A stretch of 20,566 bases of DNA, taken from a virus. Below, piece by piece: positions 2,263-19,789 of the stretch. The stretch covers positions 1 through 20,566 of the IMG/VR virus record IMGVR_UViG_3300021959_009794. One strand, 5' to 3'. Below the pieces are notes generated by a model, which did not search any database, was not told where the DNA came from, and saw only the letters and a program-made list of their open reading frames with translations. Position 1 is the first letter of the stretch; every line of letters begins with the position of its first letter. The position numbers and the translations under genes were made by a program.

Positions 2263-3051
2263 ATGGAACACAAGCAATTAAAGCGTATTGAGGATTACGA
2301 TAAAAACCTCCCGATTGTAGAAATCTACACTGCAGTACAATCAGAAGGATCAAGAGCAGGATACCCAACAGTAGTAATTAGAACAACAGGATGTACTCAC
2401 AGATGTTATTTCGGTGAAGGTGGTTGGTGTGATTCTTGGTATACTAGCATCCATCCAGAAAAAGGACATTTTAATTTTAATGATATTATTAAAGCATATG
2501 AGGACAACCCCCATATCAAAGAGATGATGTTAACAGGAGGATCTCCTACTATGCATCCTGCTTTAGTAAACGAATTAACACACTTTGCACATGAAAAAGA
2601 TATATTTATCACTATCGAGACTGAAGGCTCGCATTTTCTTCCCACTGATTATCCGATTAATTTATTATCGATTTCTCCTAAATTCTCTAATTCAGTCCCT
2701 GTGGTCGGTGTTGAAACCCCTCAAGGTGGAATCACGGACGAAAGAATGGTAAAACGCCATAATAAGTTTAGACTTAATGGAGAAGCAATTGTAAAATCTA
2801 TAGAATATCATTCTGATTACCATATAAAACCCGTATGGGATGGTAAAGATCAATTAGCATTGGGTGAAATAATAGATTTTATTCGAATGTTAGATGTACC
2901 TCAAGATAAAGTATGGTTTATGCCTGCTGGAGATTCAAGAGAAGGGTTATTTAAATCTTACCCACTAGTATTTGATTGGGTTAGAGATAATGGTTATAGA
3001 ATGACTTGGAGACCACATATTATTGCTTTTGAGGACCAGCGAGAAGTATAG
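2263..3051 (+). CDS. queE: QueE-like 7-carboxy-7-deazaguanine synthase (radical SAM)
   Basis: QueE is the radical SAM enzyme that rearranges 6-carboxy-tetrahydropterin to 7-carboxy-7-deazaguanine using a 4Fe-4S cluster and S-adenosylmethionine. Key features in 262 aa: EIYTAVQSEGSRAGYPTVVI (20-39, family EIF.SvQGEG...G.P.vFvR), the cluster site C44-THR-C48-YFGEGGW-C56-DSWYT, and LTGGSPTMHP (family TGGEP). The cluster motif is CX3CX7C instead of the usual CX3CX2C, five residues having been added before the WCDS that normally follows. No Shine-Dalgarno is present; the start follows an A-rich run. The stop shares its last base with a GTG start of the next small ORF. The assignment is firm; the loop is unusual for cellular QueE. 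Confidence 0.93.
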   Translation: MEHKQLKRIEDYDKNLPIVEIYTAVQSEGSRAGYPTVVIRTTGCTHRCYFGEGGWCDSWYTSIHPEKGHFNFNDIIKAYEDNPHIKEMMLTGGSPTMHPALVNELTHFAHEKDIFITIETEGSHFLPTDYPINLLSISPKFSNSVPVVGVETPQGGITDERMVKRHNKFRLNGEAIVKSIEYHSDYHIKPVWDGKDQLALGEIIDFIRMLDVPQDKVWFMPAGDSREGLFKSYPLVFDWVRDNGYRMTWRPHIIAFEDQREV

Positions 3052-3080
3052 TGGATAAGCAAGAAGCCCTTCGTATATTA
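3051..3080 (+). promoter_or_regulatory. promoter-like element upstream of folE
   Basis: GTG at 3051-3053, 20 bases, then TATATT at 3074-3079 inside TTCGTATATTA. This is the same arrangement as at five other places in the window, but lies 95 bases before the folE ATG and within a possible small ORF. It is the member with the longest leader, so it is less certain. Confidence 0.4.
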
Positions 3081-3191
3081 GAGGAAATAGAAGAGAATAT
3101 CAATGTCTGTTGTGCCATAACAATGGAACCAGATGAAGTATTAGTATTAGTAGATAAATTAAAAAGTTATATAAATGGAGAACAAACGTAG
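3051..3191 (+). CDS. 46-aa hypothetical protein with GTG start
   Basis: A GTG overlapping the last base of the queE stop opens a 46-codon frame ending TAG at 3189-3191, 17 bases inside folE. The product is acidic and probably helical (DKQEALRILEEIEENINV, then EPDEVLVLVDKLKSYING). It fills an otherwise empty 123-base gap and uses overlap at both ends, typical of phage gene packing. The non-ATG start and small size keep confidence moderate. The same DNA carries a promoter-like element (TTCGTATATTA at 3070-3080), so this stretch could instead be a folE leader. Confidence 0.45.
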   Translation: MDKQEALRILEEIEENINVCCAITMEPDEVLVLVDKLKSYINGEQT

Positions 3192-3870
3192 AAAAGTTCA
3201 CGAAGAATTAGAAGTAGTAAAAGTAGGTTATGCAAATGGAGTTGCTGAAGGATTTCCCTTCAATGATGAAGAAAAGTTAAAAATGATTGATAAAGCTGAA
3301 ACAGCTTATGGTCAATTTTTAGATGCATTAAAATGTGATTGGAGAGATGATCCCAATTCAATGGAAACACCCCGTCGTGTAGCTAAAGCATATGTAAATG
3401 ATTTATGGGCTGGTCGTTACACAGCAATGTCTCCAATTACATCATTCCCAAGTGATGGTTATGATGGTATTGTTATTGAACGTAATATACCGTTAACTTC
3501 AATGTGTTCTCACCACCATCAAACAATTGGAGGTGTTGTTCATATTGGTTACATTGCAGGAGAAGGTGGTCAAGTAATTGGATTATCTAAATTAAATAGA
3601 ATTGTAGAATTATTTGGTCGTAGAGGAGCAATACAAGAACAATTAACATCAGCTATCCATAATGCTGTAGATAAAATTACAGATGGGAATAAAGGTGTTA
3701 TTGTTACTATAGTTGGAACACACAATTGTGTTAGCTGTAGAGGAGTTAAACATCAAGGTGCAGCAATGGTTACTACTAAGGCATCAGGGGTATTTAGAGA
3801 AAACGATAATTTATCTCGTAAAGAGTTTTTTGATAGTTTAAAAATTAATAACGGAGGACATAACATATAA
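3175..3870 (+). CDS. folE: GTP cyclohydrolase I
   Basis: FolE hydrolyses GTP to 7,8-dihydroneopterin triphosphate, the first step of both folate and 7-deazaguanine synthesis. At 231 aa it is full length (E. coli 222). Motifs in order: ETPRRVAKAYV, SMCSHHHQTIGGVVHIGYI with zinc ligands C111 and H114, GLSKLNRIVELFGRRGAIQE, and THNCVSCRGVKHQGA with C185 as the third zinc ligand, then MVTTKASGVF. All residues expected for a type IA enzyme are seen. Overlap with the upstream mini-ORF and the 3-base gap to the phosphoribosyltransferase suggest one operon. In this setting it most likely feeds QueD-QueE-QueC for preQ0 rather than folate. Confidence in the family is very high. Confidence 0.96.
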   Translation: MENKRRKVHEELEVVKVGYANGVAEGFPFNDEEKLKMIDKAETAYGQFLDALKCDWRDDPNSMETPRRVAKAYVNDLWAGRYTAMSPITSFPSDGYDGIVIERNIPLTSMCSHHHQTIGGVVHIGYIAGEGGQVIGLSKLNRIVELFGRRGAIQEQLTSAIHNAVDKITDGNKGVIVTIVGTHNCVSCRGVKHQGAAMVTTKASGVFRENDNLSRKEFFDSLKINNGGHNI

Positions 3871-3873
3871 ATT

Positions 3874-4323
3874 ATGGCATTAAAAGCAGACAATAAAATA
3901 TATCTATGTTGGGATGATATAAACATTTTAGTTGATATATTAATCAATAAAATCCGACATGACCAACCTAATATAGATTCAGTTCATGGTATTCCAAGAG
4001 GTGGATTAATCCCAGCAGTATTAATATCACATAAATTAGGTTTACCTTATGTAAATGCAGTAGGTCCAAATACATTAGTAATCGATGACATATGTGATTC
4101 AGGAGTTACATTAGAAAAAGCCCCAGGTGTTTGGACTGCAGTATTACATTATAAACCCCATACATCCAGTTTCCAACCTAGTATGTGGGCTAATATACAT
4201 GAAGGGGATGAATGGGTTATATACCCTTGGGAAACTAAAGATTCCAAACCCATTCAAGATTATTTAAAACCTGGAGCTAAGGAATATAGAGATAAATGTG
4301 ATGAATATTATAAATCAAAATAA
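3874..4323 (+). CDS. Purine phosphoribosyltransferase-like protein (Gpt-like)
   Basis: A 149-aa type I phosphoribosyltransferase: HGIPRGGLIPAVLIS at 38-52 (PPi-binding loop) and the PRPP motif VIDDICDSGVTL at 69-80. The C-terminal half has W, HEGDEWVIYPWE, a pattern I associate with xanthine/guanine phosphoribosyltransferases. It likely joins a purine base to PRPP. Placed next to folE it could restore the GMP/GTP pool that FolE consumes, or salvage a modified guanine; neither can be decided from sequence. The segment between residues 80 and 100 is short for a flexible catalytic loop. Family confident, substrate not. Confidence 0.85.
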   Translation: MALKADNKIYLCWDDINILVDILINKIRHDQPNIDSVHGIPRGGLIPAVLISHKLGLPYVNAVGPNTLVIDDICDSGVTLEKAPGVWTAVLHYKPHTSSFQPSMWANIHEGDEWVIYPWETKDSKPIQDYLKPGAKEYRDKCDEYYKSK

Positions 4324-4329
4324 ATAAAT

Positions 4330-4527
4330 ATGGAATATTGGCAAATTAAAACTCAAAATGAATTTGAGAATGAAAGAGGTAGAATACAAAAAACAACTGA
4401 ATTATATTTAGTAGTAGCAGTATCAGCAACAGACGCAGAAGCTAAGATGTACAAACATAATGAAGGTATGTCTAATTTTCGAGTTGTAGAAGTAAAGAAA
4501 ACTAAATTTTTAGACGTTATAAACTAA
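4330..4527 (+). CDS. 65-aa DUF4494-like protein
   Basis: The 65-aa product reads as a small alpha/beta domain: WQIKTQNEFENERGRIQKTT, then ELYLVVAVSATDAEAKMY and FRVVEVKKTKFLDVI. The order 'basic patch, E.YLV.A.S.T.AEA, then a strand ending I.rakf.ei' matches what I remember of DUF4494, a short family frequent in Bacteroidota and their phages and of unknown function. The TAA overlaps the ATG of the next gene by one base, indicating coupled translation with the pyrophosphohydrolase. The family match is from memory and would need a profile search. Confidence 0.7.
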   Translation: MEYWQIKTQNEFENERGRIQKTTELYLVVAVSATDAEAKMYKHNEGMSNFRVVEVKKTKFLDVIN

Positions 4528-5090
4528 TGGGAAAACAATTAACAATATTTGATGAGGCAAATGGTGGTATTGAAGCACCACCTAGTGTGCCCTTTGTAAA
4601 TGAAGTAGAGATATTTAATTCTACTTTTGGAAAACCAAATAATTATGAACCAACAATACCAGAAAAAAAGGAGTGGGAATTCGTATACGACTTTGTACTT
4701 GAAGAATTGGAAGAATATAGACAGGCTTGCGAAAACGGAGACATCGTGGAAGTTTTGGATGCTTTGTGTGATATTGCTTATGTTTCCCTTGGGAACGGTA
4801 CTATGTTACACGGTCTTAAAGGTAAGATATGGCCCGCGTATCAAGAAGTACAGGGAAGCAATATGTCGAAGTCTTGTAGCACTAAAGAAGAAGCCATGGA
4901 GACTGTCACCCTCCGCTCTAAAGAACAAGCTGAGCCATGTCACTTTGAACAGGTCGAAGACCGATTCGTAGTATATAGAACACGTGACCGTAAAGTAATG
5001 AAATCAATCAATTACTACAGACCCGATTTACACCAATTTTTCAGTGATGATGAATTAGGAAAGTTTCATGATGTTGAAACAATAATATAA
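4527..5090 (+). CDS. MazG/PRA-PH-like nucleoside triphosphate pyrophosphohydrolase
   Basis: A 187-aa protein whose middle part is an all-alpha NTP pyrophosphohydrolase: the metal-binding pattern ExxE (E60-LE-E63) is followed after 11 residues by ExxD (E75-VL-D78) and D82, the EX2E...EX2D signature of MazG and HisE-like enzymes. A further section WPAYQEVQGSNMSKSCST is typical of the phage and bacterial versions that act on deoxynucleotides. The last ~50 residues (HFEQVEDRFVVYRTRD...) form an added, beta-like tail I do not recognise. It probably hydrolyses a nucleoside triphosphate to the monophosphate, either cleaning the dNTP pool or removing a canonical dNTP that competes with a modified one. 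It is the last gene before a terminator. Confidence 0.82.
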   Translation: MGKQLTIFDEANGGIEAPPSVPFVNEVEIFNSTFGKPNNYEPTIPEKKEWEFVYDFVLEELEEYRQACENGDIVEVLDALCDIAYVSLGNGTMLHGLKGKIWPAYQEVQGSNMSKSCSTKEEAMETVTLRSKEQAEPCHFEQVEDRFVVYRTRDRKVMKSINYYRPDLHQFFSDDELGKFHDVETII

Positions 5091-5099
5091 AAAACGTAG

Positions 5100-5117
5100 G
5101 CTCCCGTAGGGAGCTTT
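5100..5117 (+). terminator. hairpin terminator after the MazG-like gene
   Basis: GCTCCC (5100-5105), loop GTA, GGGAGC (5109-5114), followed by TTT: a six-pair GC-rich stem with a tight loop, in an otherwise AT-rich gap 10 bases after the stop. The T-run is short (TTTCGTATATTT) and is itself the start of the promoter-like element, so termination and re-initiation appear fused here. Confidence 0.7.
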
Positions 5118-5126
5118 CGTATATTT
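5115..5126 (+). promoter_or_regulatory. promoter-like element TTTCGTATATTT before the polymerase gene
   Basis: The core TATATT is at 5120-5125, 21 bases before the ATG at 5147. The 10-base core TTCGTATATT recurs at 8419, 10361, 12865, 19762 and 3070. The position 20 bases upstream reads TAG instead of (T/G)TG, so the -33-like half is poor here. The bases after it (TAAATAAAAGTTATATA) closely resemble those after the 10361 copy, suggesting a shared leader. Confidence 0.6.
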
Positions 5127-5146
5127 AGTTAAATAAAAGTTATATA

Positions 5147-6856
5147 ATGTATAAAAAGTGCTATTCCACTAGGTTAAAAAATAATAAATTTAAAATCCAT
5201 TTATGGGATGAAGGTGGATATGATGAGATTGAGTGGACTAATTATGCCTATAAAGAATGTAGAGAAGATAAAGCAACCCATAGGGGAATAAATGGTGAAT
5301 ATTTACTTAAAACACATCAATGGTATAAAACAGATTCAAACTTACACTTTCATGATATCCCTCCTTATCAAAAATTTTTAATTGAAAAATATGGAACAAA
5401 TGATGCTCCTTCAACGGGACATAGAGAATTATTTTTTGATATTGAGTGTGAAATAGGAGGAGCACTTACTGAAGAATACATTGAAAGTGCACCCATGCCT
5501 ATTACTTCTATCGCTTATTGGGATAAAACACCTGATAAATGGGTTATTTTAATTTTAGATAGAAAAAATGAATTATCTTATAAGAAAATTGATGGTAAAG
5601 AAGTTATACCTATAAGAACTGAAAGAGATTTACTATTAAAATTTATAGAAAACTTTAGAGAAATAAACCCAGATATTTTAATAGGTTATAACAGTGATTA
5701 TTTTGATATTCCTTATTTATATTACAGAATGTGTAATGTAATAGGAAAGGATTATGCTAGTTATCTTTCACCTATTAATAAAGTAAATGCTAAGAAAAAT
5801 AACCAATACTTTTTTAAACAAAATCAATATGTTGATATAGTAGGAGTTGAATCTTTAGATTATATTCGTTTACACAAAAAATACCATTGGAAAGATGAAC
5901 CTAGTTGGAAACTAGATGCTGTTGGTTTAAAATATGCTAATTTAGGAAAGGTTGAATATGAAGGAAATTTAGATCAACTTTTTTCAAATGATATAAATAA
6001 ATTTATTGAGTATAACTTTCGTGATGTTGAAATATTACAAAAATTAGATGAAAAACTTCAATATATTGCATTAACAAAGAATTTAGCACATAAGGGTAAA
6101 CACAATTACAGTGAAGTATATGCTAATAGTAAAACCCAAGATGGAGCAATTTCAGCTTATTTATTAGACCAAGATATAGTCCCACCACCTAAAGAGCAAA
6201 ACCCACAAAAGAAAGATAGTTATGCTGGAGGATACCTTTTTTGCCCCAAAGCAGGATTGTATAAGTATATGTTTGATGAAGATTTAACATCGCTATATCC
6301 CTCTATAATAATGTCTATAAACATAGGTAAGGAAACATTTGTAGGGCGTATTGTAGATGAAGATGACCGTAATAATAGATTGGGACTTAACGATTTAAAA
6401 TCTAAAGACCCTAAAGAAGAACTATTAGTTGAAAATAGTAAGCAACAAAGAACAGTTGTTACCGTAAGTAAGTTAATAGAAATAATTGAAACACAGAAAC
6501 TAGCTATAGCAGCTAACGGTTCAATGTTTAGAACAGATAAGGAATCAGTTTTATCTACTATTTTAAAGAAATGGTTTAAAGAAAGAGTTGTATATAAAAA
6601 TCGTATGAAAAAAGCTTATAAAGCTGGAGATAAACAATTAGGTGAATATAATCATTTAATGCAGTATACAATGAAAATTCTATTAAATAGTTTATATGGT
6701 GCTACTGCTTTACCTTCATTTAGATATGGTATGAATTTCCAAACTTTAAGTGAAGCAATTACTTTATCAGGACACAGAATTATACAAGAATCTGCCTTAT
6801 GTGCCAATAGACATATGAATAAAGTTATACGTGGAGAATTAAAATTAGATATATAA
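5147..6856 (+). CDS. Family B DNA polymerase, N-terminal fragment (gp43-like, exonuclease plus motifs A and B)
   Basis: The first 569 aa of a T4 gp43-type replicative polymerase. Proofreading exonuclease motifs: Exo I FDIEC (D98, E100), Exo II NSDYFDIPYL (N182, D187), Exo III YNFRD (Y289, D293). Polymerase motif A is EDLTSLYPSII with metal-binding D379; motif B is KILLNSLYGA at 510-519. The reading frame stops after RGELKLDI, before motif C, which lies on a separate gene at 7476. The stop overlaps the ATG of the cupin gene (TAATG). Together the two parts are 880 aa, close to T4 gp43 (898), so little or nothing is lost at the break. No intein motif is seen at the end. The product must pair with the second fragment to make a complete palm active site. 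Confidence 0.95.
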   Translation: MYKKCYSTRLKNNKFKIHLWDEGGYDEIEWTNYAYKECREDKATHRGINGEYLLKTHQWYKTDSNLHFHDIPPYQKFLIEKYGTNDAPSTGHRELFFDIECEIGGALTEEYIESAPMPITSIAYWDKTPDKWVILILDRKNELSYKKIDGKEVIPIRTERDLLLKFIENFREINPDILIGYNSDYFDIPYLYYRMCNVIGKDYASYLSPINKVNAKKNNQYFFKQNQYVDIVGVESLDYIRLHKKYHWKDEPSWKLDAVGLKYANLGKVEYEGNLDQLFSNDINKFIEYNFRDVEILQKLDEKLQYIALTKNLAHKGKHNYSEVYANSKTQDGAISAYLLDQDIVPPPKEQNPQKKDSYAGGYLFCPKAGLYKYMFDEDLTSLYPSIIMSINIGKETFVGRIVDEDDRNNRLGLNDLKSKDPKEELLVENSKQQRTVVTVSKLIEIIETQKLAIAANGSMFRTDKESVLSTILKKWFKERVVYKNRMKKAYKAGDKQLGEYNHLMQYTMKILLNSLYGATALPSFRYGMNFQTLSEAITLSGHRIIQESALCANRHMNKVIRGELKLDI

Positions 6857-7197
6857 TGGGAATAGAAAGTAGACCTTGGGGAATGTATGAAGTATTATTA
6901 GATTCTCCTGAATGTAAAGTAAAAAGAATAACAGTAGCACCTGGTCAAAGGTTATCATATCAATACCATTATAAAAGAAAAGAAACTTGGACTGTAGTTA
7001 AAGGTAATTTAACAATTATTCTAGATGGTGAGAAAGTATTTAGAGGACCAGGACAATCAATAAGGATACCATTAGGAGCTAAACATAGAGCCTGGAATGA
7101 AACAGGTGGAGTAGTACAATTTATAGAAGTACAAACAGGAACATACTTTGGTGAAGACGATATTGTTAGAATCGAAGATGATTATAAAAGAGAATAA
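6856..7197 (+). CDS. Cupin, ManC C-terminal/type II phosphomannose isomerase-like
   Basis: A stand-alone 113-aa cupin. The order RPWGMYEVLL, CKVKRITVAPGQRLSYQYHY, R.ETWTVVKG, GPGQSIRIPLGAKHRAWN and FIEVQTGTYFGEDDIVRIED follows the C-terminal domain of ManC-type mannose-1-phosphate guanylyltransferases (type II phosphomannose isomerase) very closely. In those proteins this domain converts fructose-6-phosphate to mannose-6-phosphate; here the nucleotidyltransferase half is absent. The metal-site pattern is Q.H...E, with a second His in AKHR. It sits inside the split polymerase gene, overlapping its stop by one base, with no obvious tie to replication. A link to the glycosyltransferases from 16615 is possible. 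Family confident, reaction inferred. Confidence 0.88.
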   Translation: MGIESRPWGMYEVLLDSPECKVKRITVAPGQRLSYQYHYKRKETWTVVKGNLTIILDGEKVFRGPGQSIRIPLGAKHRAWNETGGVVQFIEVQTGTYFGEDDIVRIEDDYKRE

Positions 7198-7198
7198 T

Positions 7199-7462: not shown

Positions 7463-7475
7463 AAATATTATATAA

Positions 7476-8411
7476 ATGAAACATATACAAGATACACCTT
7501 GGTGGATTTGCGATGAAGGAGATGATAATTATTGTGCCTATGTGGACACAGATTCTAATTATTTTAATGCCGAACCTTTATTACTTCATTTATACCCTAA
7601 TTTTGAAGAATTTACTGCTAAAGAAAAAGATAATCTTTTAGAAAAAGTAGCACTAAAATACCAAGATATTATCAATGATGATTATGATAGATTAGCACGT
7701 GAAGCATTTAATGTGCAAGATCATAGACTAGAAATGAAAACAGAATGTGTTATACGTTCAGCTTATTTTAGAGCAAACAGAAGATATGCACAATGGATTA
7801 CAAAGCAAGAAGGTATAGAAAAAGAATCTTTAGATATTAAAGGTTTAGAATTTATGAAGGCAAATTTTCCCCCTATTTTAGGAAAGTTTTTTAATGATAT
7901 ACTCCAACAAGTATTAAAGGGTGAAGAAAAATCTAGTATTTTAGATCAAATTAAAATATTTAAAAAACAAATATTAGACGGTACTATTTCATTATCACAG
8001 CTAGGTAATCCTACAGCAGTTAAAAAATTAGGAAAATATAGTGGAACTAAAGCTAGAGCAGGTGAAATGTTTACTGAAATACTCAAAGGAGCTCCTGCCC
8101 CAGTACGAGCAGCAATCCGTTATAATGACTTGCTAAAACTTTGGTCATTAGATAAAAAACATAATTTAATAACACAAGCAGATAAAGTAAAATGGATTTA
8201 TCTAAAAGATAATCCATATAAAATAGAATCATTAGCCTTTCAAGATCATGATATACCTGAAAAGATACAAGATTTTTTAGATAAATACGCTAATCGTAGA
8301 AAAGTATTTGAGTCTATATTATTAAACAAATTAGAAGGATTTTTTAGTGATTTACAATGGTCATTAGATTTAAACCCTTATAAAAACCAATTTAATTTCT
8401 TTGAGATATAA
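7476..8411 (+). CDS. Family B DNA polymerase, C-terminal fragment (motif C, thumb, clamp-binding tail)
   Basis: This 311-aa protein supplies the part missing from the 5147 gene. Motif C is YVDTDS at residues 22-27, with catalytic D24 and D26. Further on come the KTECVIRSAYFRANRRYAQW and LDIKGLEFMKANFPP blocks (the KKRYA/KG region of family B polymerases) and a thumb-like C-terminal third. The tail NQFNFFEI resembles a clamp-binding peptide, and the next gene is the clamp. It begins with its own ATG about 23 residues before motif C, after an A-rich leader ending TATAAATG. It is not a pseudogene: both halves are intact and uninterrupted. The arrangement recalls the two-subunit PolB of Methanothermobacter and split gp43 in some Aeromonas T4-like phages. 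Confidence 0.94.
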   Translation: MKHIQDTPWWICDEGDDNYCAYVDTDSNYFNAEPLLLHLYPNFEEFTAKEKDNLLEKVALKYQDIINDDYDRLAREAFNVQDHRLEMKTECVIRSAYFRANRRYAQWITKQEGIEKESLDIKGLEFMKANFPPILGKFFNDILQQVLKGEEKSSILDQIKIFKKQILDGTISLSQLGNPTAVKKLGKYSGTKARAGEMFTEILKGAPAPVRAAIRYNDLLKLWSLDKKHNLITQADKVKWIYLKDNPYKIESLAFQDHDIPEKIQDFLDKYANRRKVFESILLNKLEGFFSDLQWSLDLNPYKNQFNFFEI

Positions 8412-8429
8412 AATAAATTTCGTATATTA
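8401..8429 (+). promoter_or_regulatory. promoter-like element directly before the clamp gene
   Basis: TTTG at 8400-8403, 19 bases, then TATATT at 8423-8428 within TTTCGTATATTA. TTTG-N19-TAnnTT is close to the Bacteroidota -33/-7 consensus. The TATATT ends exactly 6 bases before the ATG at 8435, so transcription would begin at or very near the start codon. The upstream half overlaps the end of the polymerase fragment gene. Confidence 0.65.
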
Positions 8430-8434
8430 CAGTT

Positions 8435-9166
8435 ATGATAAATAAAAACCTATTACAAAGCACAATATCTAAATATTATTTAGGTGACTTACACAAATCA
8501 GTTAAATGGAGAATTAAAGATGATTCGTTAACTGTTTATGCCCAAAGTGAAGGGTTAGTATGTAAAACAGTATTAAATACTTTTCCTGTACAAGATAGTG
8601 ATATAGGTGTATTTGATACCGATAAATTAGTCAAACTTTTATCTATTACTAATGGAGACTTACTAATGAGTTTAAGTGGTAATGGAGCATTAAAAAATGT
8701 TATGTATATTGAAGATGCTAATTTTAATTTAACTTATACACTTGCCGATCCATTAGCAATAGGGAAAACAAGTTGGGTTACAGACCCCGAATTTGATGTT
8801 GAATTAGAATTAGATGAAGAAGATATTACCCATTTAATAAAAGCTAAGGGGGCGTTAGATGCCGCTAGTGTGCTTGTAAAAACAACTGAAAACTTAGATG
8901 GTTCTTTAGTATGTGATTTTATGTTTAGCCCCGAAGCTATTGAGGACAATTATAGTAACAAGATATCATACCAAATCAAAGGTAAAATAAAGGAAGAAGG
9001 AATGCGCTTACCTTTTAATGCACTTAAATTTAGTGAAATATTAAAAAACAATAAAGATATGGATAACGCCAAGCTATCAATAGCACCAAATGGTATGATG
9101 AAAATCCATTTCACCTCAGAAAATATAGAAAGTACTTATTATTTATTAAGAAACGAATTAAATTAA
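8435..9166 (+). CDS. DNA polymerase sliding clamp (T4 gp45-like)
   Basis: A 243-aa protein at the place and of the size of T4 gp45 (228 aa), directly after the polymerase. The sequence is typical of clamps: an acidic, strand-rich two-domain chain (WRIKDDSLTVYAQSEGLVCKTVL..., FDTDKLVKLLSITNGD, a mid-protein YTLADPLAIG linker, then EEDITHLIKAKGAL and a final LSIAPNGMMKIHF strand). Clamps share little sequence, so the call depends on pattern and neighbours: polymerase before it, clamp loader at 13134 and 14303. The ring would tether the split polymerase and, by analogy with T4, also support late transcription. A putative promoter ends 6 bases before the ATG. Confidence 0.85.
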   Translation: MINKNLLQSTISKYYLGDLHKSVKWRIKDDSLTVYAQSEGLVCKTVLNTFPVQDSDIGVFDTDKLVKLLSITNGDLLMSLSGNGALKNVMYIEDANFNLTYTLADPLAIGKTSWVTDPEFDVELELDEEDITHLIKAKGALDAASVLVKTTENLDGSLVCDFMFSPEAIEDNYSNKISYQIKGKIKEEGMRLPFNALKFSEILKNNKDMDNAKLSIAPNGMMKIHFTSENIESTYYLLRNELN

Positions 9167-10341: not shown

Positions 10342-10371
10342 GTGTCCTAGCGCAATATTATTCGTATATTC
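10342..10371 (+). promoter_or_regulatory. promoter-like element upstream of the GroES/GroEL operon
   Basis: GTG at 10342-10344, 20 bases, TATATT at 10365-10370 inside ATTCGTATATTC, 22 bases before the ATG at 10393. The downstream leader (TAAATAAATAAGTTAT) is nearly the same as that before the polymerase gene. This would drive the 106-aa gene, groES and groEL. Confidence 0.62.
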
Positions 10372-12663: not shown

Positions 12664-12828
12664 ATGACAAAACAGGAATTATTTGAGGCGATTGAAGAAA
12701 ATTTCAATACCTTAGCAGAAAACAATGCAGGAACAACAAAAGCCTCACAACAACGAGCTCGTAAAGCAGCAATGGCTATTAAAAACCTAATTACAGATTA
12801 TAAAAAAGCATCTGTAAAAGAACAATAA
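12664..12828 (+). CDS. 54-aa histone H1-like (Hc1-like) protein
   Basis: ATG at 12664 follows an A-rich leader (aataaataaataaaa) and encodes 54 aa ending TAA at 12826-12828. The chain is helical: an acidic half (MTKQELFEAIEENFNTLAEN), then a basic half KASQQRARKAAMAIKNLITDYKKA. The layout with 'G..KA...R.RKA...IK.L...yrk' is that of the short Bacteroidota Hc1/histone H1-like proteins. It may bind phage DNA in the cell. It ends seven bases before a strong terminator and closes the chaperone block. The match is by memory of the pattern, so moderately sure. Confidence 0.72.
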   Translation: MTKQELFEAIEENFNTLAENNAGTTKASQQRARKAAMAIKNLITDYKKASVKEQ

Positions 12829-12834: not shown

Positions 12835-12867
12835 TGGGGGAGTTTTTGTCTCCCCCATTTATTTTTC
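12835..12867 (+). terminator. rho-independent terminator after the chaperone block
   Basis: An eight-pair stem, TGGGGGAG (12835-12842) with CTCCCCCA (12850-12857), loop TTTTTGT, then the T-rich tail TTTATTTTTC. This is the most GC-rich spot nearby and a textbook shape. Its loop supplies the TTG of the following promoter-like element, whose TTTCGTATATTC begins in the T tail. Confidence 0.88.
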
Positions 12868-12875
12868 GTATATTC
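12846..12875 (+). promoter_or_regulatory. promoter-like element before the clamp-loader operon
   Basis: TTG at 12846-12848 (in the terminator loop), 20 bases, TATATT at 12869-12874 in TTTCGTATATTC. The ATG at 12881 begins 6 bases after TATATT, the same spacing as before the clamp gene, so the transcript should be leaderless or nearly so. Confidence 0.65.
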
Positions 12876-12880: not shown

Positions 12881-13147
12881 ATGGAAGAAACTAAAACAAT
12901 AGAAAAAGATATATTAATCGCTAGGAGGGTACCTCCTGGAGATAAATGGAGACTAATTGCAAATGAACCTAGTGGTCCAGTTCATAAAACTTTAACTGAT
13001 ACTTTAGAAGCTTATATGACTAAAACAGGATTTAAAGGCGAGTATAAATTATCACCACTAGCAGGTAAATTATTTGCTATAGATGCAGAAGAAGTTATAA
13101 TTGAAAAACCAAAAGAACAGAAATTCTCTATATATGGTGAATACTAA
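12881..13147 (+). CDS. 88-aa hypothetical protein ahead of the clamp loader
   Basis: The first gene of the clamp-loader transcript. The 88-aa chain contains [20 protein letters not shown], a helical THKTL-like section ([20 protein letters not shown]) and [17 protein letters not shown]. No known domain is recognised. The last residues, QKFSIYGEY, look a little like a short clamp-binding peptide, which would suit a gene made with the clamp loader, but this is only a resemblance. It overlaps the gp44-like gene by 14 bases. Confidence 0.78.
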
Positions 13148-14051
13148 AGAAAATAGTTTATTAAACGAAAAACATAGGCCTACAACTTTAGAAACGTATG
13201 TTGGAAATGAGAGCCTAAAAGCCTCTATTTCTAACCAGTTGGATAATAATGATATTCAAAATTATCTATTTTATGGTCCAGCGGGAACAGGTAAAACCAC
13301 TCTTGCTAAACTGTGCGTTAGAAATCTAGATTGTGATCATCTTTATATTAATGCCTCTGATGAAAGGGGAATTGAAACTATTAGAGATAAAGTATCAAGT
13401 TTTGCAAGTGTTGCTTCTTTTAAACCACTTAAAGTGGTAATTTTGGATGAAGCAGATTTTCTTACAATTCAAGCACAGGCTTCACTTCGTAATATAATTG
13501 AAACATTTTCACGTACCACTAGGTTTATTTTAACCTGTAATTATGTAGAAAGAATTATAGACCCCTTACAATCAAGGTGTCAAACATTTAAAATAGTACC
13601 ACCTACTAAAAAAGAAGTAGCAGCACATTTAGCCACTATTTGTGATATTGAAAGCATTAGTTATGAAGCCCCTGCCATTGGGAAAATTGTTAACAGGTTT
13701 TATCCTGATATTAGAAAAATGCTTAACACTATTCAATCAAGTAGTACTGAAGGTCAATTAAAGATAGATGATTCTTTACTTGTATCTACAGGCTATATGT
13801 CTGCTATAGTAGGTGAATTAAAACAATCTAAACCTCAAATTAAAAAGATAAGACAAATACTCGCTAATTCAAACGTTGATGATTTTGAGGATTTATTTCG
13901 ATATCTATTTGATAATGCTGAAGAATATCTCCCCAATAAGGTAGGTACAGCAGCAATAATAATAAATGAACATCAATATAAAGCAAACTTCCGTTTAGAT
14001 AAGGAAATAAATTGTATAAGTTTAATAACAAATTTAATAAATAATAAATAA
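13134..14051 (+). CDS. Clamp loader large subunit, AAA+ ATPase (T4 gp44-like)
   Basis: A 305-aa AAA+ ATPase that would open the sliding clamp and load it at primer ends with gp62. The open frame goes back to 13101, but the ATG at 13134 gives a sensible N-terminus ([19 protein letters not shown], family ...eKyRP.tl) and a short 14-base overlap. Walker [10 protein letters not shown] is at 48-56, Walker B VVILDEAD with D105-E106-A-D108, sensor 1 LTCNY, and the arginine finger in S147-R148-C149 (SRC motif). Length is close to T4 gp44 (319 aa). The small subunit follows after one intervening gene, not directly as in T4. Confidence 0.95.
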
Positions 14052-14053
14052 TT

Positions 14054-14302: not shown

Positions 14303-14716
14303 ATGAAAAATATATTTGATTGGATAAAGGAGATTAATACAAAAAAATCTCCTTCATCTTCATTTACCGATGATGATTGGAATTTATTCAATTCATATAT
14401 GATACACAGATTTGTATCTCAAAATACAGACTATGTAGAGGTAGTTAATCTTGCACAAGAAATACCACCTCAAGAAAAAACTATGATTTATAATATCTAT
14501 AGAGAATTTATTCCTAAAAATAATAAATGGAATAAATATATTAAATCTACAGTGAAAAAGAAAAACCCTGAATTAATAGATCATTTAAGGGATCATTTTA
14601 AATGTTCATCAAGGGAGGTAAATGAATACCTAATTTTGTTGGATACTGAAGAAATAAGTCGTATATTAGCAAATAGGGGATTAGAAACTAAAGAAATAAA
14701 AAAAATATTAAAATGA
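14303..14716 (+). CDS. Clamp loader small subunit (T4 gp62-like)
   Basis: A 137-aa protein similar in layout to T4 gp62: an N-terminal IFDWIKEINTKK, a D-D-x-x-x-F-N-S-Y-M-I-H-R section (gp62 has an equivalent NaFMvNRalS), then NIYREFIPKNNKWNKYIKSTVKKK and a C-terminal helical part SSREVNEYLILLDTEEI (gp62: vSkeKAkEikrLLt.eqi). It would complete the loader with the gp44-like ATPase. It is shorter than T4 gp62 (187 aa). It starts directly after the preceding stop and overlaps the next gene by 4 bases. Confidence 0.85.
   Translation: MKNIFDWIKEINTKKSPSSSFTDDDWNLFNSYMIHRFVSQNTDYVEVVNLAQEIPPQEKTMIYNIYREFIPKNNKWNKYIKSTVKKKNPELIDHLRDHFKCSSREVNEYLILLDTEEISRILANRGLETKEIKKILK
14639..14668 (+). promoter_or_regulatory. 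promoter-like element inside the gp62-like gene
   Basis: TTG at 14639-14641, 20 bases, TATATT at 14662-14667 within GTCGTATATTA, 45 bases before the ATG at 14713. It lies in coding sequence and has one difference in the TTTCG part, so it is a weaker member of the set. Confidence 0.4.
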
Positions 14717-14937
14717 GTAAATTAGTAGATATGTTAAGGACATCTGCACAAGCAGATAAAGCGAAAGCTATATTATCACTTGAGTTATTAGGTAATAAAG
14801 CAGTTGGTATTGGAGACCATTCAACAGGAGACTTTTATAAAAATGCTGAAGAAGCACTTATTATGTTAGTTGATGCCGATGATAGATTATCAGCACTAGA
14901 TAAGTATTTTAATACTAAAGGATTACTAAATGGGTAG
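14713..14937 (+). CDS. 74-aa hypothetical protein
   Basis: A 74-aa, probably all-helical protein: KLVDMLRTSAQADKAKAILSL, a central GNKAVGIGDHSTGDFYKNAEEAL and a last helix MLVDADDRLSALDKYF. No motif is recognised. It overlaps gp62 by 4 bases (ATGA) and the Nmad1-like gene by 8, so it is locked into the replication operon. I have a vague memory of similar short proteins in marine T4-like phages but cannot name a family. Confidence 0.75.
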   Translation: MSKLVDMLRTSAQADKAKAILSLELLGNKAVGIGDHSTGDFYKNAEEALIMLVDADDRLSALDKYFNTKGLLNG

Positions 14938-15391: not shown

Positions 15392-15392
15392 T

Positions 15393-16364
15393 TTGGCGAA
15401 AAAACTCCCAAGTATAGTAAAAGAAATAAGAAATAATCCACCTTCACCGGTGAATTATGCTTATCAAAAGAATATATCGTATTCTCAAATGTCTATTTAT
15501 AGAGGTTGCCAACATCGTTGGAAACTCCAATATAAAGATAAGATAAAACGATTTACATCTTCGATTCATACTGTATTTGGAACAGCTATTCACGAAGCGA
15601 TGCAACATTATTTAGATGTAGCTTATGAAAAGTCTTTCGCAGCTGCCGATAGGGAAATAGATATACAAGAATACTTTCAAGAAGCTTATATAAGCGAATA
15701 TCAAACTCAATATAAAAAGAATAATGATTCTCATTTTTCTTCTGCTGTTGAAATGAGAGAGTTTTTTGAAGATGGGGTTGCTATTTTAGAATGGTTTAAG
15801 AAAAAACGTAGTAGATATTTTAGTAAAAAAGGTACATATTTAGTTGGTTGTGAAATACCTATTGTAATAGCACCAAATAAAATGTTAAATAACGTGTTAT
15901 ATATGGGGTATCTTGATGTTGTCACATATCATGAAGCAACAGAGACATTTAAGATAATTGACATAAAAACAAGTACTGGGGGATGGAATGATTATGCTAA
16001 AAAAGATGAAAATAAACAATTCCAATTACTCCTCTACAAACAATATTTCTCAGAACAATATGGAATACCTTTAGATAAGATTGAAATTGAATTTTTCATT
16101 CTTAAAAGAAAAGTATTAGATCCTGATGATGAAAAACTTATGTCACCCTATCAAGCTTATAGGGTGCAGCAATTTACACCACCTAGTGGTAAAATTAAAT
16201 TGGGTAGAGCAAAAACTGCTATTAATGATTTTATTAGTGAATGTTTTAACTCTAGTGGGAAAATAAAAGAAAAAGATTACCCAAAACAAGCTTCAAAATG
16301 GAATTGTAATTTCTGTCCTTATAAAGAGGATAAAGAATATTGTGGTGAAGGTATTATATACTAA
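15393..16364 (+). CDS. Cas4/RecB-like PD-(D/E)XK nuclease with Fe-S cysteines
   Basis: A 323-aa nuclease. It opens with S-Y-S-Q-M-S-IYRGC39QHRWKLQY, then FGTAIHEAMQHYL (the GT..H motif), GYLD175V, and D190-I-K192 as the catalytic D...DxK, followed by QFQLLLYKQYF (Q..Y helix). Three C-terminal cysteines C305-NF-C308...C317 with C39 give the 1+3 pattern of the Fe-S cluster in Cas4 and AddB. The start is TTG at 15393, one base after the previous stop; the next ATG (residue 33) would cut into the conserved C39 region. No CRISPR array or cas genes are present, so a role in replication, recombination or host DNA breakdown is more likely. Confidence 0.88.
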   Translation: MAKKLPSIVKEIRNNPPSPVNYAYQKNISYSQMSIYRGCQHRWKLQYKDKIKRFTSSIHTVFGTAIHEAMQHYLDVAYEKSFAAADREIDIQEYFQEAYISEYQTQYKKNNDSHFSSAVEMREFFEDGVAILEWFKKKRSRYFSKKGTYLVGCEIPIVIAPNKMLNNVLYMGYLDVVTYHEATETFKIIDIKTSTGGWNDYAKKDENKQFQLLLYKQYFSEQYGIPLDKIEIEFFILKRKVLDPDDEKLMSPYQAYRVQQFTPPSGKIKLGRAKTAINDFISECFNSSGKIKEKDYPKQASKWNCNFCPYKEDKEYCGEGIIY

Positions 16365-16384
16365 AATAATTATATACGTATACC

Positions 16385-16392
16385 TATAAATA
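16385..16392 (+). promoter_or_regulatory. T4 late-type promoter TATAAATA
   Basis: A perfect TATAAATA octamer in the 50-base gap after the nuclease gene, 22 bases before the ATG at 16415. This is the T4 late -10 consensus recognised through the gp55-type sigma factor. It differs from the TTCGTATATT elements and may mark a switch to late expression of the RHH-like and glycosyltransferase genes. Confidence 0.6.
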
Positions 16393-16414
16393 AACGTTAT
16401 TAAAAATAAAAATT

Positions 16415-16603
16415 ATGGCAGATGCTAAAAAAATGACACTAACTAGTGTTAAAGTGAAAAGTGAATTATTTGAAAATTTTAAAGTTGAATGTGTAAGAAG
16501 AAAATTCTCGTTCCAAAAACTTGCCGATCGTGCTTTGTTTTTGTACCTTACGGATGAAGATTTTAGAAAACAAATTTCAAATCAAACTAATCTTGAATTA
16601 TAA
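16415..16603 (+). CDS. 62-aa ribbon-helix-helix-like protein
   Basis: The 62-aa product starts with a polar tail and a strand (KMTLTSVKVKS), then helix ELFENFKVECVRRK, a turn with FSFQKLADRALFLYLTDEDF and a short end. Strand-helix-helix with this size is the ribbon-helix-helix DNA-binding layout (Arc/MetJ). I recall very similar small proteins with 'LTSVKV...F..FK......FSLQKL..R.L.LY..DE.FR' in marine T4-like phages. It may be a dimeric regulator. It is first behind the late-type promoter and before the glycosyltransferases. Confidence 0.78.
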   Translation: MADAKKMTLTSVKVKSELFENFKVECVRRKFSFQKLADRALFLYLTDEDFRKQISNQTNLEL

Positions 16604-16614
16604 ATTTTAAATAA

Positions 16615-18063
16615 ATGAAAAAAAGTTTTGAACACATTCCTAAAGAACAAAGGAAAAAAATATTATTAGTTTGTGACGATATTAGGGTACATTCAGGTGT
16701 TGCCACAGTTGCAAAAGAAATAGTAATTCATACAGCCCATCATTTCAACTGGGTAAATGTAGCAGGAGCTATTAAACACCCAGAAAAGGGAAAAACATTA
16801 GATATATCTCAATCTGTTAATACAGAAGCAAAAATAGAAGATGCTAATGTGAAATTGTATTGTGTAGATGGTTATGCTCAATCTATTGAAATACAACAGA
16901 TTTTATCTTTTGAAAAACCTGATGCAGTAATGTTAATTACAGATCCTAGATATTTTAAACATATTTTTAATATGGAGGATACTATTAGAAAACAATGTCC
17001 TCTAGTATATTTAAATATTTGGGATGATTACCCAGCACCAATGTATAATAAGCCTTTTTATGAGGCTTGTGATTTGTTAATGGGTATTTCAAAACAAACA
17101 GTAAATATTAATAAGTTAGTTTTAGATGGGGTTGATAATAGTAAAAGAGTATTTAAGTATGTTCCTCATGGTTTAAATCATGAACAATTTTACCCAATAA
17201 ATAAAGAACATGAAGAATTTGAGGAATTTCAAAAATTTAAAGAGGGTATTATAGGAAAAGATACTGAATTTGTAATGTTTTTTAATTCAAGAAATATTCG
17301 TAGAAAACAAATCCCAGATTCAATGTTAGCTTTTAGATCGTTTTTAGATTCTTTACCAAAAGCAAAGGCGGATAAATGTAAATTTATTTTACACACTGAT
17401 TTATCAACGGACCATGGTACAGATTTAGGAGCAGTAGCTGAATATCTGTTTGGAGAAAATTATGAAGAAAATATTGTTTTCTCACACGCAAAACTTTCAA
17501 GAAAACAGTTAAATTGGTTATATAACACAGCAGATGTTCAAATTCTAATCACTTCAAATGAAGGGTGGGGATTAACTCTTACAGAAGCAATGTTAACAGG
17601 TACCCCTACAATTTCTAATGTAACAGGAGGTATGCAAGACCAAATGAGATTTATTGATGAAAATGGTAAATGGTTTGAACCAAGTGCTGATGTTCCTTCT
17701 AACCATAGAGGTACTTATAAAGAACATGGTGAATGGGTATTTCCAGTTTATCCAACTTCAAGATCAGTACAAGGATCACCTCAAACACCTTATATATTTG
17801 ATGATAGATGTGCATGGGAAGATGTTTGTGATAGAATAAAAGAAGTATATGAACTAACACCTAAAGAACGTAAATCCAGAGGATTAAAAGGTAGAGAATG
17901 GGCATTAGGTGATGAAGCAGGGTTTACAGCAGAACACCAAGCTCAAAGAGTAATGGAAGCCTTTGATGAATTATTCTCAGTTTGGGAACCAAGAGGAGAT
18001 TATGAGATAGTTAATGCAACAGAGTATAAAGGAAGATTTTTAAACCATAAAATTACATATTAA
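16615..18063 (+). CDS. GT4-type glycosyltransferase
   Basis: A 482-aa GT-B fold glycosyltransferase. The N-terminal domain starts with KILLVCDDIRVHSGVATVAKEI (GvG-like acceptor loop) and contains KPDAVMLITDPRYF; the C-terminal domain has VPHGLNHEQFYPI, FFNSRNIRRKQIPDSMLAF and the EX7E motif in E316-GWGLTLT-E324-AMLTGTP, the retaining GT4 signature. It would transfer a sugar from an NDP-sugar; the acceptor could be phage DNA, a virion protein or host surface glycan. The stop shares one base with the next gene's ATG. Family clear, substrate unknown. Confidence 0.9.
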   Translation: MKKSFEHIPKEQRKKILLVCDDIRVHSGVATVAKEIVIHTAHHFNWVNVAGAIKHPEKGKTLDISQSVNTEAKIEDANVKLYCVDGYAQSIEIQQILSFEKPDAVMLITDPRYFKHIFNMEDTIRKQCPLVYLNIWDDYPAPMYNKPFYEACDLLMGISKQTVNINKLVLDGVDNSKRVFKYVPHGLNHEQFYPINKEHEEFEEFQKFKEGIIGKDTEFVMFFNSRNIRRKQIPDSMLAFRSFLDSLPKAKADKCKFILHTDLSTDHGTDLGAVAEYLFGENYEENIVFSHAKLSRKQLNWLYNTADVQILITSNEGWGLTLTEAMLTGTPTISNVTGGMQDQMRFIDENGKWFEPSADVPSNHRGTYKEHGEWVFPVYPTSRSVQGSPQTPYIFDDRCAWEDVCDRIKEVYELTPKERKSRGLKGREWALGDEAGFTAEHQAQRVMEAFDELFSVWEPRGDYEIVNATEYKGRFLNHKITY

Positions 18064-19337
18064 TGAGTAAACCAGTTTTTATAATTAGTGCCCCAGTAGA
18101 CACATATAGTGGTTATGGTGCAAGATCAAGAGATATAGTTAAATCTATAGTGGAGTTAGATAAATATGATGTTAAAATCTTAGCACAAAGATGGGGTGAT
18201 ACTCCAACAAATTTTATAGAGGATCATAGTAATTGGAGCTTTTTAAAACCTTTATTAATACCAAACTTAACATCAAAACCTGATATTTGGATGCAGATTA
18301 CAATCCCAAATGAGTTCCAACCAGTAGGTACTTATAATATTGGTTGTACAGCGGGGATTGAAAGTACAGGTTGTGCTTCAACTTGGATTGAAGGATTAAA
18401 TAGAATGAATCTTAATTTAGTATCATCAGAACATAGTAAAAAAGTATTTTCAGATATTAAATTTGAGCAAAGAGATAAAAGAACAAATGTAATCCAGGGA
18501 ATAATTAAATTAGAAAAACCCATAGAAGTTATATTTGAAGGAGTTGATTTGGATACTTATTTTTATAAAAAACCACAAGAAGTAGAATTAGATTTAGATT
18601 CAATAAATGAAACATTTTGTTATTTATTTGTAGGACATTGGATGAATGGTGCTTTTGGTCATGATAGAAAAAATGTTGGATTAATGGTTAGAAATTTCTT
18701 TGACGCCTTTAAGAATAAAAAATCACAACCTGCTTTAATTTTAAAAGCATGTACTGGGAGAAATAGTTATATAAGTAGAGAGGAATTATTAGAAAAAATC
18801 AAAATCATAAAAAAACATTACCCTAAAGGTACTAAATTACCTAATGTTTATATTTTTAATGGTAATTTATCTGATACTCAAATGAATGATTTATATAACC
18901 ATCCTAAAGTAAAATCCATGATTAGCTTTACTAAAGGTGAAGGTTATGGTAGACCTTTAGCAGAATTTGGATTAAGTAAAAAACCTATTATTGCATCAGC
19001 TTGGTCGGGTCATGTTGATTTTTTAACTCAGGGTAATTGTATTTTAGTTCCTGGTCAATTAGAACCAGTACATGCAAGTGCTGCTAATCAGTGGTTATTA
19101 AAAGAAACACAATGGTTTAAAATTGATGATAACGCATCAATAAAAGCACTTAAGGATGTTTACGAAAATTATAAAAAATATATAGTAGGAGCTAAAAAAC
19201 ATGGTCATCATATAAAAACCAATTTTTCATTTGATGCTATGAAAGAATTATTAGGGGATGTATTAGAAAAGAATATACCCTTTATTCCTAAAGAGGTAAA
19301 ATTATCTTTACCACAATTAATAACACCAAAACTATAA
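18063..19337 (+). CDS. Second GT4-type glycosyltransferase
   Basis: A 424-aa GT-B protein of the same family as its upstream neighbour but diverged. It has SGYGARSRDIVKSI near the start, CTAGIESTGCASTWIEGLNRM and LVSSEHSKKVF in the N-terminal domain, VIFEGVDLDTYFY at the domain border and the EX7E site E293-GYGRPLA-E301 in TKGEGYGRPLAEFGLSKKPIIAS. The tandem with the 16615 gene (TAATG overlap) suggests sequential sugar additions. The Cys-rich IGCTAGIESTGCAS block is unusual for GT4 but known to me from phage versions. Confidence 0.88.
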   Translation: MSKPVFIISAPVDTYSGYGARSRDIVKSIVELDKYDVKILAQRWGDTPTNFIEDHSNWSFLKPLLIPNLTSKPDIWMQITIPNEFQPVGTYNIGCTAGIESTGCASTWIEGLNRMNLNLVSSEHSKKVFSDIKFEQRDKRTNVIQGIIKLEKPIEVIFEGVDLDTYFYKKPQEVELDLDSINETFCYLFVGHWMNGAFGHDRKNVGLMVRNFFDAFKNKKSQPALILKACTGRNSYISREELLEKIKIIKKHYPKGTKLPNVYIFNGNLSDTQMNDLYNHPKVKSMISFTKGEGYGRPLAEFGLSKKPIIASAWSGHVDFLTQGNCILVPGQLEPVHASAANQWLLKETQWFKIDDNASIKALKDVYENYKKYIVGAKKHGHHIKTNFSFDAMKELLGDVLEKNIPFIPKEVKLSLPQLITPKL

Positions 19338-19339
19338 GT

Positions 19340-19789
19340 ATGGCACAATACGATGAAATAATACAATGTCCTAAATCAGGCGGTGATTTATGTTATAAAA
19401 TAGAAGTAAGCAAAGATATAACGCAATATATGAGTTTATCATGTGGGTTTATGACAAATACATTAATGAAAGTCGATACAGACTTTTATAAAGAACAAAT
19501 GGTTTTACTTCCCGAATTATATAAGGACTTAGCTTGGTTAGATACCGATACCGAATTAGTATGGTTACCCAACAACATAAATGTTCCTGAATTAGGAATG
19601 GTTTACGCTTCAGGTGCTAATATAGAAGAATGGAAATGGGCGGCAGTTAAAGCTATTAAATTAGATAAAGAAGTTACAAACAAAGATGGATCAAAATCCT
19701 TATATAAACCAGATATGTCTACAGTAGAATATTTTGAAGAGCGTGATTATATAGATGCTCTTTCGTATATTGGGGCATTACCAAGCTAG
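19340..19789 (+). CDS. 149-aa hypothetical protein between glycosyltransferases
   Basis: A 149-aa acidic protein with no domain I recognise. It begins MAQYDEIIQCPKSGGDLCYKIE and continues CGFMTNTLMKVDTDFYKEQM, LAWLDTDTELVWLPNNINVPELGMVYASG, IEEWKWAAVKAIKL and ends in YIDALSYIGALPS. It has three Cys (CP...LCY...SCGF) but no clear zinc site. There is no signal peptide or membrane segment. I recall similar proteins in other marine T4-like phages without an assigned role. Position, 2 bases after one glycosyltransferase and 6 before another, hints at a structural or glycosylation link. Confidence 0.8.
   Translation: MAQYDEIIQCPKSGGDLCYKIEVSKDITQYMSLSCGFMTNTLMKVDTDFYKEQMVLLPELYKDLAWLDTDTELVWLPNNINVPELGMVYASGANIEEWKWAAVKAIKLDKEVTNKDGSKSLYKPDMSTVEYFEERDYIDALSYIGALPS
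19743..19772 (+). promoter_or_regulatory. promoter-like element before the last glycosyltransferase
   Basis: GTG at 19743-19745, 20 bases, TATATT at 19766-19771 within TTTCGTATATTG, 24 bases before the ATG at 19796. It lies in the 3' end of the preceding gene, but the 10-base core and spacing match the intergenic copies. Confidence 0.5.

Follow-up and report, generated by a model that had tools for sequence, protein, structure and literature searches.

Seven near-identical short words punctuate the DNA analysed here, the 20,566-base virus record IMGVR_UViG_3300021959_009794 (the window, in its whole length), and they raise the question whether transcription starts at them and, if so, which polymerase would read them. 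The window is a T4-like replication cluster. Its recurrent decamer TTCGTATATT, which an initial annotation had proposed as the mark of a phage promoter family, is with considerable confidence assigned to a putative promoter family on the grounds given below, and the element would very probably be the start switch of early and replication genes.

As described in the initial annotation, exact copies begin at 3070, 5116, 8419, 10361, 12865 and 19762 on the + strand and a one-mismatch copy, GTCGTATATT, at 14658 on the same strand; on the − strand of the window the exact decamer does not occur. The upstream trinucleotides (GTG at 3051, 10342 and 19743, TTG at 8401, 12846 and 14639, TAG at 5097) also stand where they had been placed, with a gap to TATATT of 20 nucleotides (nt), or 19 nt for the copy at 8419. 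Four copies (5116, 8419, 10361 and 12865) are indeed intergenic, and the three inside open reading frames (ORFs), at 3070 in a GTG-start ORF of 46 amino acids (aa), at 14658 in gp62 and at 19762 in the last part of a 149-aa ORF, each precede another gene start. Markov models of order 1 to 4 predict 0.02–0.15 exact copies on the + strand of the window versus the six found, and with one mismatch allowed on both strands 10 matches were counted against a mean of 3.5, a number equalled in 2 of 100 shuffles. As all called genes of the window are on the + strand, the strand bias within the window alone proves little.

The relatives are more telling. With gp44, the polymerase and the clamp as queries, 171 loci were gathered, which overlap one another and 26 of which are without a copy; in them the decamer runs 403 times with the matched gene and once against it, compared with 35 and 50 for the reversed decamer as a control. 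Eighteen of 20 whole related contigs carry TTCGTATATT, throughout on one strand per contig; the exact decamer is absent from the other two (G010 and G015), a few gaps of which show, by eye, TTTGG-N19-TATATTTA. Across 21 T4-like contigs including the window (970 kb), which are related so that counts are not independent, 139 copies were observed versus 3.3 expected and none of the reverse complement, the highest ratio of observed to expected among decamers counted at least 30 times. All 139 lie on the coding strand, 117 (84%) within 60 nt of an ATG versus 8.9% of random positions, and the median gap to the next ATG is 25 nt as compared with 379 nt for random positions. Strand, distance to starts and presence in relatives, the latter seen in related loci, in contigs and in a pattern scan of IMG/VR, had been named as the checks that a promoter family should pass, and all three came out in its favour. 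Under ATG-start calling 120 of the 139 copies are 'intergenic', among them eight of the nine copies of the GTG/TTG-start small ORF, and because the caller took ATG starts alone, truly intergenic copies number at most 112; in eight of the 139 the called ATG abuts the decamer, upstream of the presumed transcription start, so that either the start codon or the start site is misplaced there.

With the genes of these contigs nearly confined to one strand, a test of strand needs a contig that is coded in both directions. Such is contig C69 of bin G025, with three forward and six reverse copies, all nine of which have a start on their own strand within 61 nt, eight without an opposite-strand gene coming first. 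When IMG/VR was scanned blind for the full pattern, at least 120 stretches were returned, three from contigs already collected; among the matches listed, 120 of 120 have at least one ORF homologous to the clade and 111 of 120 have at least 30% of their ORFs so, the motif lying 281 times on the majority coding strand and five times on the opposite one. One stretch (L325), in which a lone ORF has weak homology and the motif lies opposite to the expected strand, may be a chance match. As separate observations, most promoters of C69 (L253, L270) have their own common spacer, TTTGGAGAAGC, versus TTTGGnTACCC elsewhere; another bin contig (G023:C73) has seven copies of the decamer, all on the + strand; and the word AAAGGTTATG, found 58 times versus 5.4 expected and never reversed in the 21 contigs, lies at start codons as a translation start context, downstream of many promoters of the family.

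The full element reads TTTGGnTnCC-N10-TTCGTATATT with nearly rigid spacing. Among 104 non-redundant copies taken from 535 instances, TTG, GTG or TAG stands exactly 16 nt before TTCG in 94 (66, 15 and 13, respectively; TTTGG in 37), G is found at −17 in 100 and at −16 in 86%, and TnCC trails weakly; three of the four exceptions at −17, the clamp promoter of the window and two with similar flanks, have TTTG one base closer. A matrix trained on the same copies, its threshold of 12.5 fixed on the ratio of forward to reverse matches, found 284 sites (class 1) on the forward and eight on the reverse strand of 15 contigs (G005, G008, G009, G010, G015 and G016 excluded), 128 with the exact decamer. 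In 167 non-redundant matrix sites TATATT is nearly invariant and the C and G of TTCG are retained in only 65% and 71%; the core is therefore TTTG-N20-TATATT, and TTCG strengthens it, reinforcing a broader TNNTATATT core.

In copies inside genes it is the DNA, rather than the peptide, that is held fixed. Arginine over the CGT of the motif is found in 77 of 119 distinct gp62 orthologues and is encoded by CGT in 77 of 77, versus 44 of 398 arginine codons elsewhere in the gene; in 30 distinct orthologues of the 46-aa ORF arginine is CGT in 25 of 25, leucine CTT in 27 of 28 (0 of 91 elsewhere) and isoleucine ATA in 29 of 29 (103 of 139 elsewhere). The copy at 19762 shows a weaker constraint, with serine TCG in 42% and leucine CTT in 70%, and as the orthologues are related, the codon fixations are not independent events. 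Mere coding conservation, for which the recurrent peptides LRIL and SRIL at these copies might speak, is scarcely credible in view of synonymous codons locked to the motif, related as the sequences are.

The genes served by the element are of a particular kind. On a related contig of 138,667 bases (G001), 36 of 51 class 1 sites lie at 30–90 kb, alongside the polymerase, the clamp loader and many small ORFs; elsewhere on the contig are the sheath, gp25-like, terminase, portal and protease genes, but also the helicase gp41, RNase H-like and NrdA-like genes at 23–28 kb. A second word, TATTTATAA, is found there 22 times on the coding and six times on the other strand, with four of the 22 at 30–90 kb (Fisher p 7e-5 for the difference in placement, the boundary having been chosen after looking). 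Gaps upstream of the sheath gene (4877) and the portal gene (132395) of this contig, among others, hold TATTTATAA, and between the genes of the 21 contigs it occurs 50 times on the forward and five times on the reverse strand, compared with 19 for the reversed control. Read along the coding strand, it includes the T4 late promoter TATAAATA in reverse-complement form. Class 1 sites tend to score higher where the gene that follows is small (rho −0.31, p 1e-6; 231 of the 284 sites, on related contigs). In the oriented contig at 72–76 kb, several gaps between small ORFs show by eye a recurring inverted repeat around CAACGTATT...GTTGCG.

As to the polymerase, on balance we lean towards the reading that the putative promoters are recognized by the host polymerase with a sigma-A-type factor and TTCG as an extended −7 contact. 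The family would belong to one clade of uncultured T4-like phages whose hosts are probably Flavobacteriales, and host RNA polymerase would bind a −33 box (TTTG, at best TTTGGnTnCC) and a −7 box (TATATT, in most copies with A two bases on), 20 nt apart, with the adjoining TTCG contacted much as other bacteria use an extended −10. So read, the element would drive replication, chaperone, nucleotide and small early genes with early or middle timing, its strongest copies tending to sit before the smallest genes, and TATTTATAA, before several virion genes, may be read by a phage sigma factor. What the data show directly is the element's placement and strand, its spacing, its conservation down to codon choice, its restriction to the clade within the scan and its concentration away from structural genes; we infer initiation, sigma-A recognition, timing and host alike. 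The usual gap between TTTG and the −7 box in Bacteroidota promoters is 19–21 nt. PMC7366714 and PMC9723704 give TTTG, near −33, and TAnnTTTG, at −7, as the boxes of Bacteroidota sigma-A promoters. The element shows the −33 TTTG/TTG and the gap (20 nt; 19 in the clamp promoter of the window). A Bacteroidota-like layout with an added TTCG, as the initial annotation had it, is thus favoured by the tests, refined to a longer upstream box TTTGGnTnCC, a near-rigid gap and a TATATT that mostly has A two bases further on, in place of TAnnTTTG.

Several results point to such hosts. Three of the six bins with a relative of the polymerase are titled Flavobacteriaceae or Flavobacteriales, and one Pelagibacter. 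Shine-Dalgarno sequences give no signal in the clade phages, 52 of 743 starts versus 41 in shuffled sequence, as compared with 27 of 51 in T4 as a control. The genome TARA_ERS488589_N000003 of the Exo-T4-like Bacteroidota phages, described in PMC7198788, is T4-like, has 32% GC and que genes and was predicted to infect marine Bacteroidetes.

A further hint comes from the Microcystis phage Mel-JY01 (PP395634), whose polymerase is 34% identical to that of the window and whose name was not found in the open-licence PMC literature. It has TTG-N16-TTCGTA-N2-TT 12 times versus 0 reversed, in 10 of the 12 followed by TG, that is, TTCG-TAnnTTTG, and TTG-N20-TAnnTTTG 28 times versus eight; sites such as 64051, 68736, 69105, 69467, 140609 and 143693 are of the form TTGC-N-TTCGTAnnTTTG. 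As this phage joins TTCG to a sigma-A-type box, the balance shifts towards host recognition via an extended −7, although TTCG may also be a phage-specific device inherited by common descent in the clade and Mel-JY01. That TTCG could be phage-specific, as the initial annotation suggested, agrees with the lack of the strict form of the element in 395 host-phylum genomes; a separate activator site, its other suggestion, is not required, since TTCG adjoins a canonical box in a distant phage.

A number of observations weigh against recognition by the host polymerase. At the place of the final G of TAnnTTTG the 104 copies, which keep TAnnTT, have A in 72% and G in 11%, and TAnnTTTG itself is not enriched between the genes of these phages (nine on the forward and 27 on the reverse strand, 16 reversed). 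TTGGNTNCC-N10-TTCGTATATT occurs in none of the 395 Bacteroidota genomes; as the reversed control is also 0, only a host-wide family of the strict form is excluded. In a Flavobacteriaceae bin (G021) TAnnTTTG occurs 66 times upstream of genes versus 19 times reversed, but the bin shows neither a −33 signal nor TTCGTA-N2-TT; in 26 genomes of its family TTTG-N20-TATATTTG is enriched (102 vs 62) but TTTG-N20-TATATTTA is not (99 vs 97). In bin G024 TAnnTTTG is not enriched (8 vs 9), and the decamer in six bins (matches/reversed control 1/13, 13/9, 16/20, 22/13, 10/19 and 16/5) shows no clear enrichment, nine of the 16 copies in the bin with 16/5 being on a phage-like contig. Reported Bacteroides spacers differ in length, unlike the rigid element, and a −33 motif reportedly was not found in F. 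johnsoniae. The recorded host of Mel-JY01, a cyanobacterium, does not fit Bacteroidota-type promoters, and Shine-Dalgarno-like signals are found at 18 of its 44 starts versus eight in shuffled sequence; a Bacteroidota companion in the Microcystis culture as its carrier is a guess, against which the latter signals also weigh. The host consensus as the whole explanation is weakened by the A for G, by the strict form in 0 of 395 genomes and by the 26-genome comparison.

These points leave some room, doubtful as we consider it, for a promoter code of the phages' own, in which TTTGGnTnCC and TTCG-TATATT would be poorly read by unmodified host polymerase and would need a phage or virion-borne factor, with the host-type TAnnTTTG shunned; phage genes would then escape host control and host promoters would lose out. 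Rather unlikely, in our view, is the need for a phage-made activator or sigma-appropriating protein, with an activator on TTTGGnTnCC near −30 and the host sigma-A holding TATATT alone. The long, GC-rich and rigidly phased TTTGGnTnCC box, the deviation of the −7 box from the host consensus, the A-ending box pair not enriched in the host family and the clade-homologous ORF in all stretches listed among the at least 120 of the blind scan would suit it, but the clamp promoter of the window lacks GGnTnCC and yet retains TTTG and TTCGTATATT, and the listed top over-represented decamers include no other promoter-like word fit to serve a first activator. PF09114 (MotA family) was found in 0 of 10 contigs at E 1, these being fragmentary and the search without a T4 positive control, and no ORF had T4 MotA, AsiA or gp33 as its best match at E 1e-3.

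Reading of the sites by a phage-encoded sigma factor, be it a gp55-like protein or an unrecognized one, appears improbable. The clade does encode a gp55-like protein of 237 aa (G002 45848–46561, which is L274 1303–2016; oriented G001 88071–88784), with relatives in 67 loci. It has a partial match to PF04542 (sigma region 2; E 1.9e-5, below the curated cut-off, in one of 20 contigs) and a PHROG match of 0.046, and predicted residues 15–115 superpose on sigma region 2 of 5ipl_F (Z 9.6, rmsd 2.1, 92 residues) and 5h6x_A (Z 9.1, rmsd 2.5, 93 residues); these values come from a second structure aligner, whose Z of about 8–11 is a level which, according to the aligner, is possible for any helical bundle, and the model has a middling pLDDT of 67.5. 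Foldseek with this model found no match at E ≤0.001 (best 0.1), the profile comparison with the single T4 gp55 gave a probability of 1.2%, the profile search of PDB sequences returned one unrelated weak match, and phrog_234 was uninformative, matching nothing anywhere, controls included. Against its reading of the TTCGTATATT sites is the place of its gene, which on G001 and G002 lies past the last exact copies (none after 84.4 kb and 38.3 kb, respectively), where TATTTATAA sites set in; the protein may be the late sigma. A −33 box would need region 4, so that PF08281 (region 4) in 0 of 10 contigs (PF04545 was not searched) speaks against a phage sigma; for promoters of the extracytoplasmic function (ECF) type the same count of 0 of 10 bears on a phage ECF sigma, and host ECF factors may take part. 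The gene of a phage sigma must itself first be transcribed by something.

Very improbable is another DNA or RNA signal, such as an origin, a packaging or recombination site, an RNA processing site or part of a terminator. The core resembles part of a loxP arm, and hairpins predicted at −8 kcal/mol or lower overlap 31 of the 104 copies versus 11.9 from mononucleotide shuffles, but 73 are without one, and promoters would account for the spacing of the two boxes, the position immediately ahead of starts, the concentration away from virion genes and the turning with gene direction. The hairpins overlapping the −33 box (about 30% of copies) are perhaps terminators of the preceding gene; a clear case is the copy at 12865, which is fused with a hairpin and a T-run (predicted −19.8 kcal/mol).

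As a putative promoter family, the element offers a readable promoter code for uncultured phages that have been sampled often, while the polymerase family of their probable hosts has received little study. It also yields a testable claim: that Bacteroidota transcription can use an extended −7 contact. With its two boxes at a near-rigid distance, it can mark genes and operons in clade contigs and act as a DNA tag for members.

The positions in the window are collected in Table 1. Besides the replication genes, the window encodes QueC, tRNA-Gln, a radical-SAM protein, GTP cyclohydrolase, a PRA-PH (MazG-like) protein, Hsp20, GroES, GroEL, an exonuclease and a glycosyltransferase. Among 50,697 phage records the clamp has one match (25% identity), and the polymerase, a family B enzyme, reaches at best 34%; its gene is in two parts (5147–6856 and 7476–8411) with a cupin/mannose-6-phosphate isomerase-like ORF in between (6856–7197). 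Promoter 2 contains a hairpin, GGCTCCC-gta-GGGAGC. Placed from the position of the boxes, the transcription start of promoter 3 would be the A of the clamp ATG; the clamp (8435) and the 88-aa ORF (12881) would be leaderless if transcription begins 7 nt past the decamer. The ORF behind the possible promoter 8 has WCGPCK and looks thioredoxin-like by eye, and a ninth site of the matrix scan, at 16540 (score 16.9), is probably due to chance. A 54-aa ORF (12664–12828) matches histone H1-like Hc1 above the Pfam cut-off. Another ORF of 62 aa (16415–16603), present in 20 of the 21 contigs and often with TATATACGTATA- or TATATGTATA-like palindromes upstream, has by eye the look of a ribbon-helix-helix DNA-binding protein; considered as a candidate activator, it gave no such match in the Pfam search.

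Table 1. Putative promoters of the TTCGTATATT family and replication genes in the window.
Feature	Position	Strand	Details
Promoter 1	3051..3079	+	GTGG 3051-3054, TTCGTATATT 3070-3079; in 46-aa GTG-start ORF, before GTP cyclohydrolase I (ATG 3175)
Promoter 2	5097..5125	+	TAGG 5097-5100, TTCGTATATT 5116-5125; before DNA polymerase N part (ATG 5147)
Promoter 3	8400..8428	+	TTTG 8400-8403, 19-nt gap to TATATT, TTCGTATATT 8419-8428; before sliding clamp gp45 (ATG 8435)
Promoter 4	10342..10370	+	GTGT 10342-10345, TTCGTATATT 10361-10370; before 106-aa ORF (ATG 10393), then GroES, GroEL
Promoter 5	12846..12874	+	TTGT 12846-12849, TTCGTATATT 12865-12874; before 88-aa ORF (ATG 12881) and clamp loader gp44
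Promoter 6	14639..14667	+	TTGG 14639-14642, GTCGTATATT 14658-14667; inside gp62, before 74-aa ORF (ATG 14713)
Promoter 7	19743..19771	+	GTGA 19743-19746, TTCGTATATT 19762-19771; end of 149-aa ORF, before last window ORF (ATG 19796)
Possible weak promoter 8	1442..1470	+	TTGG 1442-1445, TACTTATATT 1461-1470; before 80-aa ORF (ATG 1524); matrix scan alone, score 23.4
DNA polymerase gp43, N part (split gene)	5147..6856	+	phrog_262 E 1.7e-107
Sliding clamp gp45	8435..9166	+	phrog_223 E 5.3e-7
Clamp loader gp44	13101..14051	+	phrog_168 E 2.4e-76
Clamp loader small subunit gp62	14303..14716	+	phrog_225 E 3.2e-15; holds promoter 6

Among the papers listed in a search of the open-licence PMC literature, none dealt with the TTCGTATATT element or with phage promoters of the TAnnTTTG type. 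The element can be compared with systems known from other phages and from the hosts. The first 50 kb each of T4 and phi14:2 hold no excess of related matches; the same length of RM378 has one TTG-N16-TTCGTA-N2-TT and none reversed, and that of phi38:1 (L470), which infects Cellulophaga, three TTG-N20-TATATTTA and none reversed, in both cases too few to judge, although phi38:1 possibly represents the same promoter layout in an unrelated phage. T4 middle promoters, which depend on MotA and AsiA, likewise carry an additional box, near −30, ahead of a −10 element and stand before replication genes, but the box differs in sequence, and neither MotA nor AsiA was detected in the contigs searched. With T4 early promoters the element shares the position of strong promoters before small early genes, whereas the sequences are others and the sigma factor is different. 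T4 late promoters, TATAAATA read with gp55, consist of a single −10-like element before virion genes; the TTCGTATATT element, in contrast, has two boxes, including one at −33, and few sites in the structural part of G001, and that role in the clade may be filled by TATTTATAA and the sigma-like protein.

The Bacteroidota sigma-A promoters share with the element the TTTG/TTG at about −33, the 20-nt gap, TAnnTT, A-rich leaders and the lack of a Shine-Dalgarno sequence; it differs from them by the last G that is mostly A, the near-rigid gap, the longer −33 box and the TTCG before the −7 box. The promoters of Mel-JY01 show TTG-N16-TTCG-TAnnTT with an equal gap, mostly before genes, and differ in a −7 box TAnnTTTG, which keeps the final G, and a TTGCATAC-like −33 box. 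The element resembles, without being identical to, the signals of the probable Bacteroidota hosts, and is common to many related uncultured phages.

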